A DNA stretch of 64,000 nt, from NCBI GenBank assembly GCA_016868315.1, contig VGHE01000007.1, forward strand, positions 122,058-186,057, given 5' to 3'. Of the stretch, positions 46,967-56,197 are shown in pieces. A program made the position numbers and the translations under genes. The notes under the pieces were generated by a model that was not told the origin of the DNA, ran no database searches, and worked only from the letters and a program-made list of their open reading frames with translations. The stretch is from Betaproteobacteria bacterium. GTDB taxonomy: Bacteria > Bdellovibrionota_B > Oligoflexia > Silvanigrellales > Silvanigrellaceae. Numbering within the stretch: the stretch's first letter is position 1; the number at the start of each line of letters is the position of its first letter.

Positions 46967-47707
46967 TCACACGCCACGCAGATTGCCATGAGTTAGGACG
47001 TGCAAGCGTGTTGTCATCCGCCAACCCTTGCTCAGACAAATCTCTTCGAGCCACGTGTTGGTGAGGTGGTCTTCGGTTCGTGTTCCTTCGGCCATGAGTA
47101 TGACTCTCGCCGAATCAATTCCCGCGTCACGAATGAGCGTTTCAACCTCGTCGAGATCCTGCGCAGATTCCTTCTTCCGAATCACAAACTTGAAGTTGAC
47201 GCTCACCTTTTCTGAACCCAATGCAGCCCAGTGCCTGAGTGCGTCAATGTTGAGTGGTTGACCCGCGTTCTTACCCTTGGGGGAGATGTTCCAGTCCATC
47301 AATGCGTAGTGTTCGCGTTTGAAGGAGTGGTGCGCCGCATGGGGAATCTGTGTGCCATTGCTTTCCACTTCGATCGTATGCGTGTCGCTGAGTGCAGAAG
47401 CGAGTGGAGCAAGATTCTGCAGAGTGGGTTCGCCACCCGAGAGAATGACATGCTTGATTCGTGCATGAGCTTTGATCTCAGCAATGAGCTCGTCGTTTGT
47501 TATGCGCTTGAATTTCTGCTTTCCTGCGGGTTCATTTTTGTCGACGGGATCGCTGCGTAACGTATGTGTGTAGGGTGTGTCACACCAGGTACAGCGCAGG
47601 TTACAGATTTGCAAACGCACAAGGACACTGGGTTTCCCGAGATGTGGTCCTTCACCCTGCAGGCAGGGATAAATCTCGTTGACAAGATAAGTCTGGGTCT
47701 CGCTCAT
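46967..47707 (-). CDS. queE: 7-carboxy-7-deazaguanine synthase
   Basis: 246-residue radical SAM enzyme that contracts 6-carboxytetrahydropterin to 7-carboxy-7-deazaguanine in queuosine synthesis. The 4Fe-4S ligands are C35, C39 and C42 (CNLRCTWCDT), preceded by YPCLQGEG. VILSGGEPTLQ and EVESNGTQIP bind SAM and substrate. The start overlaps queD by 4 bp. queC and queF are not in the window. Confidence 0.94.
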   Translation of the reverse strand: MSETQTYLVNEIYPCLQGEGPHLGKPSVLVRLQICNLRCTWCDTPYTHTLRSDPVDKNEPAGKQKFKRITNDELIAEIKAHARIKHVILSGGEPTLQNLAPLASALSDTHTIEVESNGTQIPHAAHHSFKREHYALMDWNISPKGKNAGQPLNIDALRHWAALGSEKVSVNFKFVIRKKESAQDLDEVETLIRDAGIDSARVILMAEGTRTEDHLTNTWLEEICLSKGWRMTTRLHVLTHGNLRGV

Positions 47708-48624
47708 GGGTACAGTGCACCCTTGTTGAGCCCCTCGTAGCCGCGCACCTCAACGCCAGTGCATTCGGAGAAGAATGTCTTATGAATCCACTCAGAAATA
47801 TTCTCGATCGTGCTTTCCTCGGGCATCAGAATAACTCTTTCGCGAGGTGCACAGACCCTGACTTCACCTTGTGTGCCTTCGTATTTGAGCCACATATGGT
47901 TATCGGTTGTGAATTCAAATCCAGTCAAAAGCTCCGCATGCTTCTGCAATTCAGCTGGGCTCGGCAGGTGCGCATAGACGGGTGTCACAAGATATTTGCC
48001 ATCGAGCGCACGCGCGACGTTTTCAGAAGCGCTCTTGTCCAGAGCTGCGTTACGGAACACCTCTACGACATTGCTGTGACCATGGAATCTTTGGCAGTTT
48101 CCGCTGTGCATCCGCAGACTGTGCAGGTAATTGAAGAAATGTGGTTCATGAGCCTGATTGTGCCAGCTAAGTTTAACCTTCACGTGTGAAATGTTGGCTG
48201 GGCTTTCGGCGCGGATGGCCTGGGCAACAAGGAGTTCAAGTTTGCTGCAAGCGTCAGTCGAGAGCTCTTCAAAGATGTCTTCACCAACAACTGTGAGTGA
48301 TTGAGGGTAGGTGTCGAGCAGAAAGCGGTTCTCCGGGGCTGTGGAGAGATAAGGAACGCAGAGCGTTCGACCGTCTGACAACTGCCGTACGTTTGCTTCC
48401 GAAATCACAAGTCGATGGTCAAACTGTTCGTCGATAATCTTCTTTGCGATTTTCTTTGCTGCCGAGAAATCGACAACCACGCCTTCCTCGTCTGTGGCAC
48501 CATGCCACTCGACATCGACGCTCCAAGAGCGTCCCACAGGACCGCGCGTTCTGTCCCAGACAGCGCAATCAAGGATTGTAACGTTGCGGACAAATATTTT
48601 TGAGAATTGCTGCTTGATGCTCAT
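47704..48624 (-). CDS. queD: 6-carboxytetrahydropterin synthase-like protein, two-domain form
   Basis: 306 residues, about 2.5 times ordinary QueD. The N-terminal half carries one PTPS-like unit (ILDCAVWDRTRGPVGRSWSV, then GVVVDFSAAKKIAKKIIDE and FDHRLV). The C-terminal half carries another with RMHSGNCQRFHGHSNVVEVF. The metal-binding His and catalytic Cys seem spread over the two units, so a fused pair may build one active site. It starts at ATG 48624 with GAGG six bases upstream. The 4-bp overlap with queE supports a role in the preQ0 pathway. Confidence 0.82.
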   Translation of the reverse strand: MSIKQQFSKIFVRNVTILDCAVWDRTRGPVGRSWSVDVEWHGATDEEGVVVDFSAAKKIAKKIIDEQFDHRLVISEANVRQLSDGRTLCVPYLSTAPENRFLLDTYPQSLTVVGEDIFEELSTDACSKLELLVAQAIRAESPANISHVKVKLSWHNQAHEPHFFNYLHSLRMHSGNCQRFHGHSNVVEVFRNAALDKSASENVARALDGKYLVTPVYAHLPSPAELQKHAELLTGFEFTTDNHMWLKYEGTQGEVRVCAPRERVILMPEESTIENISEWIHKTFFSECTGVEVRGYEGLNKGALYP

Positions 48625-48692
48625 ATAAAGCCTCAACACACCTCGGTAAATTCCAAGAGGTTTCGGCGTCTTATATGAAAGCTTTTACGGAT

Positions 48693-49616
48693 TCAACTCA
48701 AAAGTTTGAGTGCGAGCTGGGGGAGCTGATTGGACTGTGAAAGCACCGCCACGCCGGCCTGCTGGAGGATCTGCTGCTGCGTCATTCCCGCGCTTTCCTC
48801 AGCAAAATCAGCGTCTTTGATTCGTGACTTGGCCGCGTCGAGGTTCTCAATACGGATGCCCAGGTTGTTGACTGAGCTCTGCAGCCTGTTTTGCACGGAA
48901 CCGAGGGTTGCTCGGTACGAATTGACCCTTTCCAGTGCATCATCGAGGCGTTCCATACTTAACTGAGCCATTTCCTTGGTGTCGACGCGCGTTCCGTCTG
49001 GGCTTTCGGCGCTGCCAATGTTGAGCGAGTTCGGACCGTCTGTCATGGCATTCAGGTCTTGAAGATCGATGCGGATGATGTTGGTTGGGTTTTGAACGTC
49101 GCGCCCGTCTGTCAATGGATTCCAATCAGACCCAACTTGTATCTCGAGCGGCGGAATGTTTCCGTTGCGTTGGAGTTCCTCGGGCAACTGGTTGTCACCG
49201 ACCAGCAGCTTCGTGCCATTGAAGTCTGCAGAGTTCGCAACGCGATCGATTTCGTTTTTGAGAGCCGAAAATTCTTTCTGCAGAAAACCACGCTCGACCG
49301 GACCAATGGTGTCGCTTGCCGATTGAACGCTGAGCTCTCGCAAACGCGAGAGGATATTTGTTATTTCGTTCAGGCTACCTTCCGCCGTTTGAACCAAACT
49401 TATGCCATCTTGTGCGTTGCGTCGTGCCTGCTGCAAACCGCGAACTTCCGTGCGGAGATTTTCGCTGATAGCCAGACCTGCAGCGTCGTCAGCAGCTTTA
49501 TTGATGCGGTATCCGCTCGACAACTTTTCCATATGGGCATTGAGTCGTTGGGTGGAAAGCCCCAACTGCCGTTGTGCGTTGATTGACTGGACATTTGTTT
49601 GAATTCGCAGTCCCAT
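48693..49616 (-). CDS. fliC: Flagellin
   Basis: 307 residues. The conserved N-terminal D0/D1 (LRIQTNVQSINAQRQLGLS; LSSGYRINKAADDAAGLAIS) and C-terminal D1/D0 (about 225-307, ending QAGVAVLSQSNQLPQLALKLL) are complete. The central variable part is short (about 80 residues), so filaments would be thin on surface decoration. GGGAG lies 11 bases before the ATG. It starts 6 bp after the stop of the large helical-repeat gene. No other flagellar gene is in the window. No intrinsic terminator is visible in the 68 bp after it. Confidence 0.95.
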   Translation of the reverse strand: MGLRIQTNVQSINAQRQLGLSTQRLNAHMEKLSSGYRINKAADDAAGLAISENLRTEVRGLQQARRNAQDGISLVQTAEGSLNEITNILSRLRELSVQSASDTIGPVERGFLQKEFSALKNEIDRVANSADFNGTKLLVGDNQLPEELQRNGNIPPLEIQVGSDWNPLTDGRDVQNPTNIIRIDLQDLNAMTDGPNSLNIGSAESPDGTRVDTKEMAQLSMERLDDALERVNSYRATLGSVQNRLQSSVNNLGIRIENLDAAKSRIKDADFAEESAGMTQQQILQQAGVAVLSQSNQLPQLALKLLS

Positions 49617-49622
49617 TGCGTA

Positions 49623-52600
49623 TCAGGCTCCCAATTCAATTCCATTAGAGGTGGCTTGAGAACGAGAAAAATCAATCTGTGACAGGTGCTTTTTGAGCTT
49701 CAAGGTAATCTCGATCACCTTAAATGCCTGCGCTCGCATCGTCTCAATTTCATCCTTCGCTTCCCAGGTCAGTCCTTCATGAACTGCTCGATTGCGGCTG
49801 TCCTGAAGTGAGTGAATCAGCTTAATATACTCAAAAAGCTCAACGTCGCTTTCGAATCCTAGCGGCAGCATTTTTTCAAGTCCAAAGCCACATTTCAAAC
49901 GAGAAGTGACCAGGAAAAACAACGCAAAAGCCTTCGGACCATCAAGTGTGAAGCGCTTACCCGGCCTGTAGAGGCAGACTCCGCGCAGCATTTTCCTGAG
50001 CTTAAACTTTGAAAAATAAGGAATGGTCTTGACGACCGGAAGTGTCGCAAGAAAGTCCTCAAAGATTTGCATTTTTTCTGGAATGGGGCGCGCGTAGCCG
50101 AGGATATCGAGTTTGCGTGAGAGCTGTCCCTTGCGCAACAGAGCATCTGTGTAGGGCTCAAAAGAATCACGGAGCACGAGCTCAACAGCCTTGCAGTGCA
50201 TGTTCACAATTGGGCTAAGATCCATTCCTCCCTGCGTCCATCCGCGGCTCTGCAGAAAAATCATTTCTGCTGTGCGCAGCGCAGATCTCGCATCGACATT
50301 CAGAGAGTCACTGTTGGGCAGAAGAGTACGGATTGTTGTGTCTACATCTTGCCTGTCCATCCGCGCGACCTTCTTGTCCAGGTCAGTTACGCTCGCAGAG
50401 TCTTGTTGATCGATGAGAGCGGCAACCCTTCCAACAGCATCGCGCACAGCGTCGTCAATGTGCTGTGGTAATCTGAGGATTTCAAGAGTCTTGAGTTCCT
50501 GGAGAATCTCTTCTGGGTTGTGAATTGATATTTCGTCAAGAATGTTCAGCTTGAGTTCGTCGGAAATAGCATTACGCCCTACGCAACGAATCAGTGCTTG
50601 CTGTGCACGTGGGTGCGGTGACGGAAGCAGTTCGCGAATAACATGCGAAACAAAATCTCCATCAATATGCTGCAGCCCTTGGTAAAGAAGTGTCTTAATT
50701 GCTTCATCGGTTCCGAGTTGAGCCAATGCTTTTGCTATCCAACGCTTTTCAACGTGTGTGGCAGTGCGCATGGCTTCACGTAGTTGAGTCTCGGTTTCAG
50801 CAAGCGCAGATGACTCAGCAACCTGCTTTTTGCTTTCACTCACAGTGGATTGCAAAGCGCGAATCACCGCTCCCCAGCGCGCAACCGGACGGTCGACAAC
50901 CATGTGCCCAGACCAATCTGCAGCACCCGCTTCACCTTCATCGCTCTCTGCAGGTTCTTCAGTTCCTTCCCCCGTCAGAGCCTCAACGTTGTGATTGGGG
51001 TCGAGCAAAAGACAGAGCTGTGCGAACCGTTCTATTGCATTTAAAGTTTCGGTGTCGCATTCCGAGCGCGAGCTTAGCAGTGCGAGAGCCGTGGTTCGGG
51101 TGAGATATTGCAAACTAAAATCGTCTTTGCTTTTGGATTGATTTTGCTTCGCAGTGTTTTCGAACCGCTTTAAAACATTGAGTCCAAACGAACTATCATC
51201 CGGACGCAAATGCACATAGGCAAGGTCAATCCAACTGATGTCCTCGAGTTGCTGTTTAAGAAAGGCAGCAAGGTTTTGGCTTGTGAGTCTACAACCCAGG
51301 AGCGCTGAAAGCACTGCTGAGTTGGTGTCTTTGTCTTTTTTCTGCGAACACAACTGGCTAAGCTTGGAAAGTAGCTTTTCAACCAATGCATTCGCTTTTT
51401 TTTCTGAAAAATCGTGATTTATGACCGCATTTTCCACGGCCAGAAGTGAACCCAGACAAATGTTGAGAGCTAGATCGGATTCAGCAACTCCCGTTGCCTT
51501 GAGCCATTCATCTAGCTTCTTATCCAGGTCTTTCATTTCATTGTCAGTGAGGTGGATGGCGAGCAGCTCCGGAGAGTCTGCTATCCATGTTTTCAGATGA
51601 TTTGGATCGGTCAGTGCTGAGGTAAAGGCTGCAATCCCTGTGGGGCAGTATTCGCTCCAGAGTCTGCGCACTGCTGCGGCATTTTTGTCTAACTGTACAG
51701 CTGCAATTCCAAGTTTAGAGTGGCTTGCGAGCCACTCGATGCACTCTCTGTCGCCGAGTTTGAGGATCCGTTCCGTGAGAATCGAGCGCTCGGGCAATTG
51801 AGCTTTTTTCTCGAGTATGCGCAGACTCTCGAGTAGTTGTTTGTTTTCAAAACAGCCATATCCGGTGAAGTTGGCTTCTAGCTGTGTGAAGTTCTCACTC
51901 CAGAAGAGTTCTCCTGAGAGTTTGCTAAAGTCTGTTTCGTTACCCTTGCTCAACAGATTGATCTCTTTGAATCCCCAGTTGAGAAGTCGTCGTAGTTCAG
52001 GAATGGTGACTTTGGCCTGAATATTGCACAAAGCCTCGATGTGTTTCTTGCTGCCTGCGAAGAATAGATAAGTGATCGCAGCAACTGCAGCCTTTCTATC
52101 CATGTTAGTTGCGTCAATATGAGATGCAACGAGTTCGTGCGCAACACTGAGTGCCGGTTCGCTTTTTATTCCATGCCTGTAAAGCGCATTGAATGAACGT
52201 GCCAGATAGGCGTCAGAGAGGTCTGTGGCAAGTGTGGGTGCGAGCTGCTGCGCGATGCGGCCATCATGCGCTTCCTCGCAATAGCGCGCGAGGCAATACA
52301 AAATACGTTGTGGCCGTTCTGGGCTCTTCAGATAGTGAAACGCTCTATGGGCGAAGCTTCTCACCTTTGAGCGGGTCATGGCATTAATAGCGTTACCCAC
52401 AACATCCTGTTCCGGATCATTGAGCATATAATTGCAAATCGTCCAAGCTGCCGCGGGTTGAGGAGAAACATTCAGAGTACTCACAGCCTGCACGCGCTCG
52501 AGACGAGAGGGCATCATGGCAAGCAGACTCCAAAGTCCGCCATCTTGCATCTCAGGGTTCGATGCTTGAGCTGAGATTGCAGGAATGATTTTACACCGCT

Positions 52601-52652
52601 CTGACTCAAGCTCGGCTGCAAGGTATGCTGCGAGTGGACTGACTTTTTCCAT
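49623..52652 (-). CDS. Large helical-repeat protein with HEPN-like C terminus
   Basis: 1009 residues, soluble, no signal peptide. Most of the length is made of repeated amphipathic helix pairs of HEAT/armadillo type (PQPAAAWTICNYMLNDPEQD; PRAQQALIRCVGRNAISDELK). A Glu/Ala-rich acidic break lies at about 555-575. The last about 170 residues form a compact helical domain with SRNRAVHEGL (about 950-960), an R-x4-H motif of the kind that forms the RNase site or structural core in HEPN proteins. ATG has GGGAGAG upstream. Flagellin follows after 6 bp, so joint transcription is likely. I know no flagellar protein of this build; function unknown. Confidence 0.75.
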   Translation of the reverse strand: MEKVSPLAAYLAAELESERCKIIPAISAQASNPEMQDGGLWSLLAMMPSRLERVQAVSTLNVSPQPAAAWTICNYMLNDPEQDVVGNAINAMTRSKVRSFAHRAFHYLKSPERPQRILYCLARYCEEAHDGRIAQQLAPTLATDLSDAYLARSFNALYRHGIKSEPALSVAHELVASHIDATNMDRKAAVAAITYLFFAGSKKHIEALCNIQAKVTIPELRRLLNWGFKEINLLSKGNETDFSKLSGELFWSENFTQLEANFTGYGCFENKQLLESLRILEKKAQLPERSILTERILKLGDRECIEWLASHSKLGIAAVQLDKNAAAVRRLWSEYCPTGIAAFTSALTDPNHLKTWIADSPELLAIHLTDNEMKDLDKKLDEWLKATGVAESDLALNICLGSLLAVENAVINHDFSEKKANALVEKLLSKLSQLCSQKKDKDTNSAVLSALLGCRLTSQNLAAFLKQQLEDISWIDLAYVHLRPDDSSFGLNVLKRFENTAKQNQSKSKDDFSLQYLTRTTALALLSSRSECDTETLNAIERFAQLCLLLDPNHNVEALTGEGTEEPAESDEGEAGAADWSGHMVVDRPVARWGAVIRALQSTVSESKKQVAESSALAETETQLREAMRTATHVEKRWIAKALAQLGTDEAIKTLLYQGLQHIDGDFVSHVIRELLPSPHPRAQQALIRCVGRNAISDELKLNILDEISIHNPEEILQELKTLEILRLPQHIDDAVRDAVGRVAALIDQQDSASVTDLDKKVARMDRQDVDTTIRTLLPNSDSLNVDARSALRTAEMIFLQSRGWTQGGMDLSPIVNMHCKAVELVLRDSFEPYTDALLRKGQLSRKLDILGYARPIPEKMQIFEDFLATLPVVKTIPYFSKFKLRKMLRGVCLYRPGKRFTLDGPKAFALFFLVTSRLKCGFGLEKMLPLGFESDVELFEYIKLIHSLQDSRNRAVHEGLTWEAKDEIETMRAQAFKVIEITLKLKKHLSQIDFSRSQATSNGIELGA

Positions 52653-52727: not shown

Positions 52728-54284
52728 TCATTTTTGGGTGGGCAAAATAAGGTCAGTAGGCGAAATGTATCCAGTTTCCATTTGCGCAAGTTGAAGCTTG
52801 CCACTCACGTCCCAATTGACCGCTTGCCAGCGGGTGAATTGGTCAATCACCCAAACTCCCGACTGCCGGCTGCCGTTCCCACTTTTTCCATTACCCCCAA
52901 AGGGCAAATGCGCCTCGGCTCCGGTCGTGCTGTTGTTGATGCTTGTCATTCCGGCTTTGATTTCAGTTTTGAAGCGGTAGGCGGTTTCAATGTTTGTTGT
53001 GTAGATTGCCGAGCTCAGACCATACCCAGTGTCATTAGCAAAGAGTATCGCCTCATCGAGCGTCGAGTAGGTCATAACGTTGATGAGCGGACCGAATGTT
53101 TCGGTTTTATAGATCCGGTCGTTTTTCTGAACATTGTCAACAATCGTAGGGAAAGCATAGCAACCATTCTGAGCATCACCGGAGAATGTTCCCCAATCAT
53201 TGGCCGATGAAATACGTCCGTTTTTGGGAGTGAGAAGTATGTGGTGTTTCTCAACAAGCGTCTCAATGTTCTGAATATGAGTGTTGAGGAACTTTTGGCT
53301 GATCATCGGTCCGTAGAAAATTTCTTGGGAGCGAGGATCGCCAATCTTCAGCTCGGAAACCTTCTCAAGAAGTCTTTTGATGAATGTGGACTTCACGCTC
53401 TCGTGGAGAATTAGGTTGCCCAGCGATGTGCAGCGTTGGCCAGCGGTTCCAAAGGCAGCCCAGAGTGCGCCCGAAAGCGCCGCCTCCAGGTTGGCATCTT
53501 CGGCAACCACCAGTGGATTCTTGCCACCCAATTCCAGGCATGGAGACTGCAGATTTCGGCCGCAGATTTCACCGATCTGCCGACCGACTTCTGTGCTTCC
53601 CGTAAATCCCACTTTGTCGATCAGGCCTTCATCCACAAGAGAGACCAAGGCTGCTCCGGTGATCTGACCGGATCCAAAGACAACATTAAAAACTCCTTTT
53701 GGAATGCCGGCAGCCATAAGGAGCTTATAAAAGGCTAGCGAGGTTTCCGGTGTGTCTTCAGAAGGCTTCCACACACAGGTGTTTCCGCACAGCAGTGCAG
53801 GCACGAAGTACCAAGAGGGAACTGCCACAGGGAAATTTCCTGCAGTAATGCATGCGAAGACGCCCACTGGACGTCGGTAGGTGAAGAGCTCTTTCAACGG
53901 CATTTCGCTGGGGACTGTTTGTCCGTAAAGACGTCGGCCTTCGGAAACAAAGAAATGGCAGGTATCAATAGCTTCCTGAACATCACCGAGTGCCTCACGG
54001 ATGGGTTTGCCCATCTCACGTGTCACAAGCTGTGCTAACGCTGCTTTATTGCGTTCAATCAAGTGAGCGAAATTCTGGAGAACGGAGGCTCGCACGGGAG
54101 CCGGAGTCGCCGACCAAGCAGGGAAAGCCTCACGCGCTGCAACACAAGCATCGCGACAAAGTGGTTTGTCGGCACTTGCGTATGTTCCAACCACATCGTT
54201 GTTATTGGCTGGGTTCAGTGACTGAAAAAGATTGTCTTGCGAAACGACGTCCTGACCCGCAATCAATGCACTCAATGCCTTCAT
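52728..54284 (-). CDS. NAD(P)-dependent aldehyde dehydrogenase
   Basis: 518 residues of the ALDH superfamily. The general base Glu is in CLELGGKNP (about 250) and the catalytic Cys in GTAGQRCTS (about 285). The cofactor motif is VGFTGSTEVG. The C-terminal GNGSRQSGVWVIDQFTRW and LGG..CTSL patterns resemble the ALDH7 group (aminoadipate semialdehyde / piperideine-6-carboxylate dehydrogenases) more than succinate semialdehyde dehydrogenases. The exact substrate is not known. Two ATGs (54287, 54284) overlap the ABC exporter stop; the second has better spacing to GGGGAG. Confidence 0.88.
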   Translation of the reverse strand: MKALSALIAGQDVVSQDNLFQSLNPANNNDVVGTYASADKPLCRDACVAAREAFPAWSATPAPVRASVLQNFAHLIERNKAALAQLVTREMGKPIREALGDVQEAIDTCHFFVSEGRRLYGQTVPSEMPLKELFTYRRPVGVFACITAGNFPVAVPSWYFVPALLCGNTCVWKPSEDTPETSLAFYKLLMAAGIPKGVFNVVFGSGQITGAALVSLVDEGLIDKVGFTGSTEVGRQIGEICGRNLQSPCLELGGKNPLVVAEDANLEAALSGALWAAFGTAGQRCTSLGNLILHESVKSTFIKRLLEKVSELKIGDPRSQEIFYGPMISQKFLNTHIQNIETLVEKHHILLTPKNGRISSANDWGTFSGDAQNGCYAFPTIVDNVQKNDRIYKTETFGPLINVMTYSTLDEAILFANDTGYGLSSAIYTTNIETAYRFKTEIKAGMTSINNSTTGAEAHLPFGGNGKSGNGSRQSGVWVIDQFTRWQAVNWDVSGKLQLAQMETGYISPTDLILPTQK

Positions 54285-56197
54285 CATGCTCTCCCCAATG
54301 AATCTTGACCAACCAAAATAGTCTGAGTTGCGAAACTTTGCATTCCAGAACGGTGTGCAACAAAAATTTTGACTGAATGAGCCGTATGTAAATCAAGGTG
54401 TGCGAGTACTTGCGACTCTGTGGCGACATCAAGAGCGGAGGTGCCTTCGTCAATCAGCCACACTGTGGGGTCGGCGAAGAAGGCACGCGCAAAGGCCAAA
54501 CGCTGTTTTTCTCCGCCTGATAACGAGAGCACAGAATCGAATCTGTTTTTGTTGGAAAGGCAGGCGCGTTGGAGGGCTGTTTCGATGCGCTGAATCTGAG
54601 TTTCATCTGATGGGCGGAGAGAGTCCGGATAGCAGACATTCTCTCCCACTGTACCCGGAAAATAGAACGGATCTTGCGTGAGATAGGAAACACTCAAGTG
54701 CTCCGCAAGAACAGGATTGGCAATTGTGGCTCCTTCACCAGCTTCGAGCAAAATAGTGCCTTCATCTGCTTGTCGCAGTCCGGCGATGCATTCGAGCAGC
54801 GTGGATTTTCCGGAGCCGGAGGGTCCCACAATAGCAAGCTTGTCGCCTGCGGATAGATCGATGTTCAAATCCGAAACGAGATTGAATCCAGCTTGCCCGG
54901 GACGAGCGATACGCAAACCGCGCACTCTCAGGTGCTCTAATTTCCCTGAAGAGTTTACCCTGGTTTGGCTGTCTTTTTTCTCCACTTCCTGGGAAATGCA
55001 TTGAGGGTCATCCAGGAAATCAAGGAGACGCTTCAATGCTGCACTTCCTTTTTTTGTGCTGTTGAATTGATTGACTGCTGTTTGCAGTGAGCCAGAGAGC
55101 TGAGCGACAGTGACTAGAAAAGCTGTGAGTATGGTGCTCGGCAAAGCTCCCTCAGAGACCCGGCGCAGCGCAAGAACGAGCACAAAAGCGCCTGCAGTAA
55201 TTCCCAGCCATTCGACTGTGGGTGATGACAGTGCTTTTGCACGAGCCGAACGCCTCCAAATGTGAAAGATGGTCGAGTTCTTCTCCTCGAATTTGAGAAG
55301 TTCGAGTGGCTTTGACGACAGTGATTGGATGGTCTGCCAGCCTTTCATCTTCTCAAGGAAAGACTGCGAAAGCTCGGTTTGTACATTAATTCCAGTGCGT
55401 GCCAGTTTTCTCAGAGTCGAACCGGTGGTGCGCACAATGAGCCCAGCAGGGATGAAAATCACAAAGAACAGAACAAACAATTGAGTGTCGAGCAAAAGAA
55501 GCAGAATGAGGTAGATGCAGCTATTGAAAATCTCGGTCGGAATGCTTCCACACAACCGCGTAAAGCACTGCCGGATTTCGCGCGAATCATCCCCCAGAAA
55601 GCTAGCGATCAAAGAGCCTTGGGTTCGGCGCGAGATTTCAAAGGACGAGCCCAGGTAGCGCGAAGCTAGCTGGTTTCGAAGATCCCGAGCGACAGTTTCT
55701 CCCAATTTTTCCAGCTCAAACTCCTGAAGTCCCCTCAGGAAATTTGCAAGCAGGGCGACAATAAGCAGCACAGGAGCCACAAACCAACGTTGGTATTCGA
55801 CGCTCAAACCGCTTTCCAGGGTCGTTCCGCGCACGATCGGGGTCAGCCATCGGCTCGCGTGCTCCCCAAGGAGCTCAGGCCAAGTGACGAGACGTGGCTG
55901 ACCCTGTAATTGCGACACTGCATAGGTGACCAACAAGAGCAGGCACATTCCGGGAAAAACAGCGACGAGTCCTGTGGTGAGGGTCAAGGTGTAGCGTTTC
56001 TTGATGGGCGCAATAACCCGTGACCAGTAATAAAAACTCGATTTTTTGCGTTCCTCTGGAAGGGGAATTGGATCCGCGACAGCTTCTTCCAAAAGTGCCT
56101 CACTGAGTGCCGGATTAGGCACGAAATAAGATAAACCCTCATGATTCGGCAAAAATTTCCGATCCGTTCTTACGGGAGCGGAGATTATCAGTGTCAA
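54284..56197 (-). CDS. ABC exporter, fused membrane and ATPase domains
   Basis: Up to 637 residues. Membrane helices at about 70-95, 135-160, 225-265 and 340-390 form a type IV exporter core. The nucleotide-binding domain has Walker A GPSGSGKST (about 460), Q-loop YLTQDP, signature LSGGEKQR (about 560), Walker B VWLIDEGTSALD and the H-loop VAHR. This is an MsbA/LmrA/peptide-exporter type half-transporter acting as a dimer. No N-terminal C39 peptidase is present. The full open frame is given, beginning with a TTG that overlaps the divergent subtilase; GTG 56122 is a plausible shorter start. It is coupled to the aldehyde dehydrogenase by 4 bp. Confidence 0.88.
   Translation of the reverse strand: MTLIISAPVRTDRKFLPNHEGLSYFVPNPALSEALLEEAVADPIPLPEERKKSSFYYWSRVIAPIKKRYTLTLTTGLVAVFPGMCLLLLVTYAVSQLQGQPRLVTWPELLGEHASRWLTPIVRGTTLESGLSVEYQRWFVAPVLLIVALLANFLRGLQEFELEKLGETVARDLRNQLASRYLGSSFEISRRTQGSLIASFLGDDSREIRQCFTRLCGSIPTEIFNSCIYLILLLLLDTQLFVLFFVIFIPAGLIVRTTGSTLRKLARTGINVQTELSQSFLEKMKGWQTIQSLSSKPLELLKFEEKNSTIFHIWRRSARAKALSSPTVEWLGITAGAFVLVLALRRVSEGALPSTILTAFLVTVAQLSGSLQTAVNQFNSTKKGSAALKRLLDFLDDPQCISQEVEKKDSQTRVNSSGKLEHLRVRGLRIARPGQAGFNLVSDLNIDLSAGDKLAIVGPSGSGKSTLLECIAGLRQADEGTILLEAGEGATIANPVLAEHLSVSYLTQDPFYFPGTVGENVCYPDSLRPSDETQIQRIETALQRACLSNKNRFDSVLSLSGGEKQRLAFARAFFADPTVWLIDEGTSALDVATESQVLAHLDLHTAHSVKIFVAHRSGMQSFATQTILVGQDSLGRA

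Follow-up and report, generated by a model that had tools for sequence, protein, structure and literature searches.

The window analysed here is a 64,000-nucleotide stretch of a 3.24-Mb draft genome whose named relatives, as far as found, are Silvanigrella-type bacteria. It encodes a large protein, P, the name used here for the product of the ORF at 49623-52652 (minus strand). On balance, P appears to be a housekeeping RNA nuclease or RNA binder in which a HEPN-type domain is scaffolded by HEAT repeats, and which is chromosomal, vertically inherited, and class-wide. P and its orthologues are termed group I. A divergent set with the same architecture and about 20% identity to group I is termed group II. 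The features of the locus are as follows.

46967-47707, minus strand: QueE-like radical SAM protein, part of the conserved block
47704-48639, minus strand: QueD-like protein (PTPS family), part of the conserved block
48693-49616, minus strand: flagellin, 307 aa (Flagellin_N 3e-40, Flagellin_C 3e-27), one of eight Flagellin_N matches in the genome
49617-49622, minus strand: 6-bp spacer from the P stop to the flagellin start
49623-52652, minus strand: P, HEAT-repeat protein with a HEPN-like C-terminus, 1009 aa (ORF, homologues, AlphaFold2 models, HEAT matches)
49653-50345, minus strand: conserved HEPN-like C-terminal domain, residues about 770-1000 (about 230 aa)
49779-49796, minus strand: R953-N-R-A-V-H958, Rx4H motif at the end of helix 936-959, found in 60 of 60 complete domains
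50169-50183, minus strand: E824-L-V-L-R828, Ex3[KR] motif in the long helix 813-841, with the R kept in group I and lost in group II
50388-50855, minus strand: HEAT solenoid directly before the C-terminal domain, residues about 600-755 (VIA, HEAT_PBS, HEAT_2)
52728-54287, minus strand: aldehyde dehydrogenase, part of the conserved block
54284-56197, minus strand: ABC transporter, part of the conserved block

A sequence-only reading of this DNA had described a 1009-residue helical-repeat protein that ends 6 bp before flagellin and carries R-x4-H in a C-terminal helical domain. Each of these points is borne out. The ORF is real, with homologues in 30 of 38 related genomes, some of them full length; the 6-bp distance to flagellin on the same strand is as described; and the sequence SRNRAVHEG corresponds to residues 952-960. 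P evolves slowly. Full-length comparisons within the family give 37-67% identity, and the C-terminal part, compared across the class, is mostly 32-52% identical. The conserved core of the P family is composed of residues about 770-990. The architecture, conservation, inheritance, and gene order of P are direct observations. One orthologue (L048, G002:C69:8345-11292) is split into frames of 123 aa and 833 aa by an apparent frameshift near the N-terminus, which may be an assembly error.

The AlphaFold2 models of P are helical throughout, with a mean pLDDT of 79 for residues 590-1009 and 69 for the full-length protein. The solenoid matches a designed helical repeat protein in VIA (Z 12.9, rmsd 2.5, 134 residues), and this region has many other alphaRep/HEAT matches. 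HEAT_PBS scores 20.6 bits on P against a cut-off of 20.9, and HEAT_2 exceeds its cut-off in 6 of the 10 full-length relatives scanned. With models that match HEAT/importin-type solenoids and significant HEAT repeats in its relatives, P can be placed among the HEAT-repeat proteins. The N-terminal repeats run on to residue 1. This part of the protein differs in sequence and length among the relatives, which are 692-1037 aa long.

The C-terminal domain contains three features by which HEPN domains are recognised. The first is an Rx4-6H motif with a polar residue after the arginine. All 60 complete domains of groups I and II have Rx4H (RN-x3-H in 59 and RS-x3-H in one), a frequency far above chance. 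The second is an acidic residue in helix 2, often within Ex3[KR]. Group I contains ELVLR and its equivalents at this site, while group II mostly keeps the acidic residue and has lost the basic one. The third is positional: the motif closes helix 3, and a long helix 4 comes next. In the AlphaFold2 models, a predicted helix at 936-959 carries the motif (953-958) and a long predicted helix extends from 963 to 1002. The same arrangement of motif and helices has been described for HEPN domains (PMC3710099).

Groups I and II are separated in the tree with full support. Between them the R, A, and H of the motif are invariant and the N is nearly so, and these are among the few positions of which this is true. 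The genome of the window also holds a group II copy (G000:C3:91763-92416; L073:8761-11514, minus strand). It is 917 aa in length, has HEAT repeats and RNxAAH, and adjoins MurJ-like and RecA-like genes, as do its counterparts in congeners (L132, L133). In PADLOC, the group II proteins at L135, L136, and L138 weakly match the C-terminal end of the model TPR (PDLC02907; E about 0.01-0.02), with two of the three matches covering most of the domain. PDLC02907 is possibly a TPR protein with a C-terminus similar to group II.

The insert between helices 2 and 3 of the P domain is about 95 residues, which is long for HEPN, and is strongly conserved. It may carry another function. The most conserved part of the domain also takes in a long stretch outside the motifs, IPYFSKFKLRKMLRAICLYRPGKRFTLDGPKAFALFF. 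Such a stretch would suit a domain that is derived from HEPN and is non-catalytic, binding RNA or dimerising, with P acting mainly as a scaffold, and some HEPN families do work without catalysis (PMC3710099). This reading is somewhat unlikely, since R, N, and H are kept in both groups at about 20% identity, which suggests an active site.

The sequence-only reading had taken the C-terminus to be HEPN-like and had proposed a profile search against HEPN families. The assignment is supported in several respects: RN-x3-H is near-invariant and closes the penultimate helix, the long helix before it carries Ex3R, and the weak profile matches point to HEPN families. Its weaker side is that none of these matches reaches a family cut-off. 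The sub-threshold Pfam matches are to HEPN_RiboL-PSP, DUF4145, Abi_2, and HEPN_LA2681 (E 0.017-0.25) and cover the motif and its flanking helices. The CARF-HEPN models of PADLOC also match weakly over the motif region. Scans of the single P sequence against Pfam, NCBIfam, and PADLOC gave no HEPN match. Every HEPN match was gone when the RNxxxH hexamer was masked in four members; thus, the motif drives the HEPN sequence signal.

Profile-profile comparison (hhalign) was made against 36 families, 33 of them decoys, using two different query profiles. Abi_2 ranked first and DUF4145 second with both. The probabilities are low (Abi_2 10.6% and DUF4145 2.5% with one query profile, 8.3% and 2.3% with the other). 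As a control, Abi_2 and DUF4145, two accepted HEPN families, were compared with each other and gave only 1.1%, lower than the P family against Abi_2. PF05168 HEPN showed no similarity to the P domain in this test. A screen with single sequences in hhalign was too weak to weigh; its top 10, out of 464, included three of six HEPN proteins. Foldseek and VIA searches with the P models showed no HEPN entry among the matches listed; HEAT solenoids filled these lists, so this is not evidence against HEPN.

The loss of all HEPN matches on masking, and the lack of any convincing match to P in sequence-profile searches of the PDB, are what would be expected if the RNxxxH match were convergent and the domain an unrelated all-helical fold. 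This is unlikely, because the position of the motif, the Ex3R, the order of the helices, and the ranking of families fit HEPN. The C-terminal domain of P is probably HEPN-like. We put catalysis by the domain lower than this assignment, and infer the HEPN fold, catalysis, and an RNA substrate from the evidence above.

Several known families resemble P in part. Abi_2 (Swt1-like HEPN, PF07751), the best of the 36 families by profile-profile score, shares RN-x-x-A-H-x-G in register with P. Abi_2 proteins are small and often plasmid-borne, whereas P is large, has HEAT repeats and a long conserved insert, and is inherited vertically. DUF4145 (PF13643) and HEPN_RiboL-PSP (PF18735) match weakly over helix 3, RNxxxH, and helix 4, but below cut-off, and their partner domains differ (restriction helicases and others). 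The LA2681 HEPN is fused to TPR repeats and AbiJ-NTD4 to HEAT repeats (PMC3710099). Joining HEPN-type domains to TPR is therefore already known, as is the presence of HEAT repeats in HEPN-related architectures. P resembles both in linking superhelical repeats to a HEPN-type domain (or to the companion of one), but LA2681 gave only one sub-threshold match, in group II, and no AbiJ-NTD domain is seen in P. The literature searched contains no description of the P family, its class-wide conservation, or its long conserved insert, and no paper on a link between HEPN and flagellin.

Of 39 good genomes of the class, 35 are matched by a profile of the C-terminal domain. Group I is present in 34 of these, and the remaining genome (G024) has group II only. 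In the tree, the clustering by family is close to the tightest possible, with 16 changes against a minimum of 14 and a shuffled mean of 42. The profile search for the P family stayed inside its phylum. A plasmid search and a viral contig search found no relatives of P. From these sequence comparisons, inheritance of P is vertical and near class-wide, and P behaves as a core gene, not a mobile defence gene.

The suggestion that P is a phage-defence switch does not agree with this pattern. Many HEPN proteins are phage-defence (abortive infection) effectors, and the weak matches of P include Abi_2 and CARF-HEPN models. Against this, anti-phage systems are recognised by patchy and mobile occurrence, defence islands, and matches to defence models, and P has none of these. 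It is near class-wide, its tree clusters by family, searches of plasmids and viral contigs found no homologue, no recognised defence genes lie beside it, and PADLOC gave no match for P itself. A mobile switch is hard to reconcile with vertical inheritance and with searches that found no plasmid or viral relatives, and a role for P as a defence effector is very unlikely.

The genes around P form a block on one strand, present in all 13 Silvanigrellaceae genomes with P. The block contains the ABC transporter, aldehyde dehydrogenase, P, flagellin, QueD-like, and QueE-like genes, while its flanks differ between genera. Only one of the eight Flagellin_N matches of the genome is adjacent to P. The gap between P and flagellin was measured in 12 Silvanigrellaceae loci, of which 10 have 2-9 nt and two have 29-30 nt; the 13th genome (L131) has the same adjacency. 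The Shine-Dalgarno-like sequence nearest to the flagellin start is GGGAG, inside the end of the P coding sequence. Because it shares a same-strand block with fliC, queD, and queE, P may be co-transcribed in Silvanigrellaceae, and co-transcription or translational coupling of P and flagellin is plausible from this layout. A scan for the E. coli-type sigma-28 consensus upstream of the eight flagellins (L001-L008) showed no convincing site for any of them, and a scan for sigma-70 sites and terminators did not outperform shuffles.

Conservation of the gene pair, which the sequence-only reading had proposed as a check, holds in all 13 Silvanigrellaceae genomes with P but was not seen outside this family. 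No flagellin was found among the nearby genes shown for any of 31 group I loci of other families. In these families (L057-L071, L116-L130), P mostly lies beside TamA/TamB-type, FabG-like SDR, and KASIII-like genes and a divergent protein of about 330 aa, where the names given come from reading the sequences and not from a profile scan. P and flagellar genes also do not occur together consistently. Genomes G015 (96% complete) and G026 (92%) contain a group I P with no flagellin and no canonical FliG found; in G015 a single weak FliG_C match falls in a frame of 696 aa. The flagellated genomes G017 and G033 have flagellin and lack P. The pairing is in one family only and these genomes do not match it; therefore, it is read as a family-level placement.

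Chaperones and regulators of flagellar operons whose genes adjoin flagellin include FliS, FliT, FlaF, FlbT, and CsrA/FliW. P differs from these in being much larger, in having no profile match to them, and in being present in genomes without flagellin. Despite the tight spacing kept in Silvanigrellaceae, the proposal that P regulates flagellin mRNA, senses flagellin, or assists assembly is highly improbable, because the 31 loci of other families lack the pairing, P is kept without flagellin in two genomes and missing from two flagellated ones, and the block also contains queD, queE, and unrelated aldehyde dehydrogenase and ABC transporter genes.

A HEAT-scaffolded HEPN-type protein of housekeeping function is the reading preferred here. 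The HEAT part of P would probably serve to dock RNA or a partner; cutting or binding RNA without metal would probably fall to the C-terminal domain, by analogy with other Rx4H HEPN domains. The putative RNase site appears intact in sequence, with R953, N954, and H958, and E824/R828 beside them. Relatives that have no flagella still carry P, and its gene adjoins flagellin in one family only, so P is probably not a flagellin partner but a protein that acts generally on RNA, most likely with a job in RNA processing or stress unrelated to the flagellum; we infer the steps from fold to catalysis and to a target. In every Silvanigrellaceae locus seen, the QueD-like and QueE-like genes (46967-48639 in the window) follow immediately downstream of flagellin, and a link between queuosine genes and the RNase-like gene P is possible from this arrangement. 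A bolder version, and quite an unlikely one, is that a core class-specific HEAT-HEPN ribonuclease represents an undescribed housekeeping system for RNA processing or acting on tRNA. Since P shares its block with queD/queE in Silvanigrellaceae, its activity could be tied to the state of tRNA modification, with flagellin expression coupled translationally.

If the preferred reading is right, P represents an uncharacterised conserved protein family in a little-studied bacterial class. It would be a case of a HEPN-type domain, mostly known from conflict systems, serving as a vertically inherited core component. The locus would also illustrate how two genes can be strikingly paired through lineage-specific placement without forming a functional unit.
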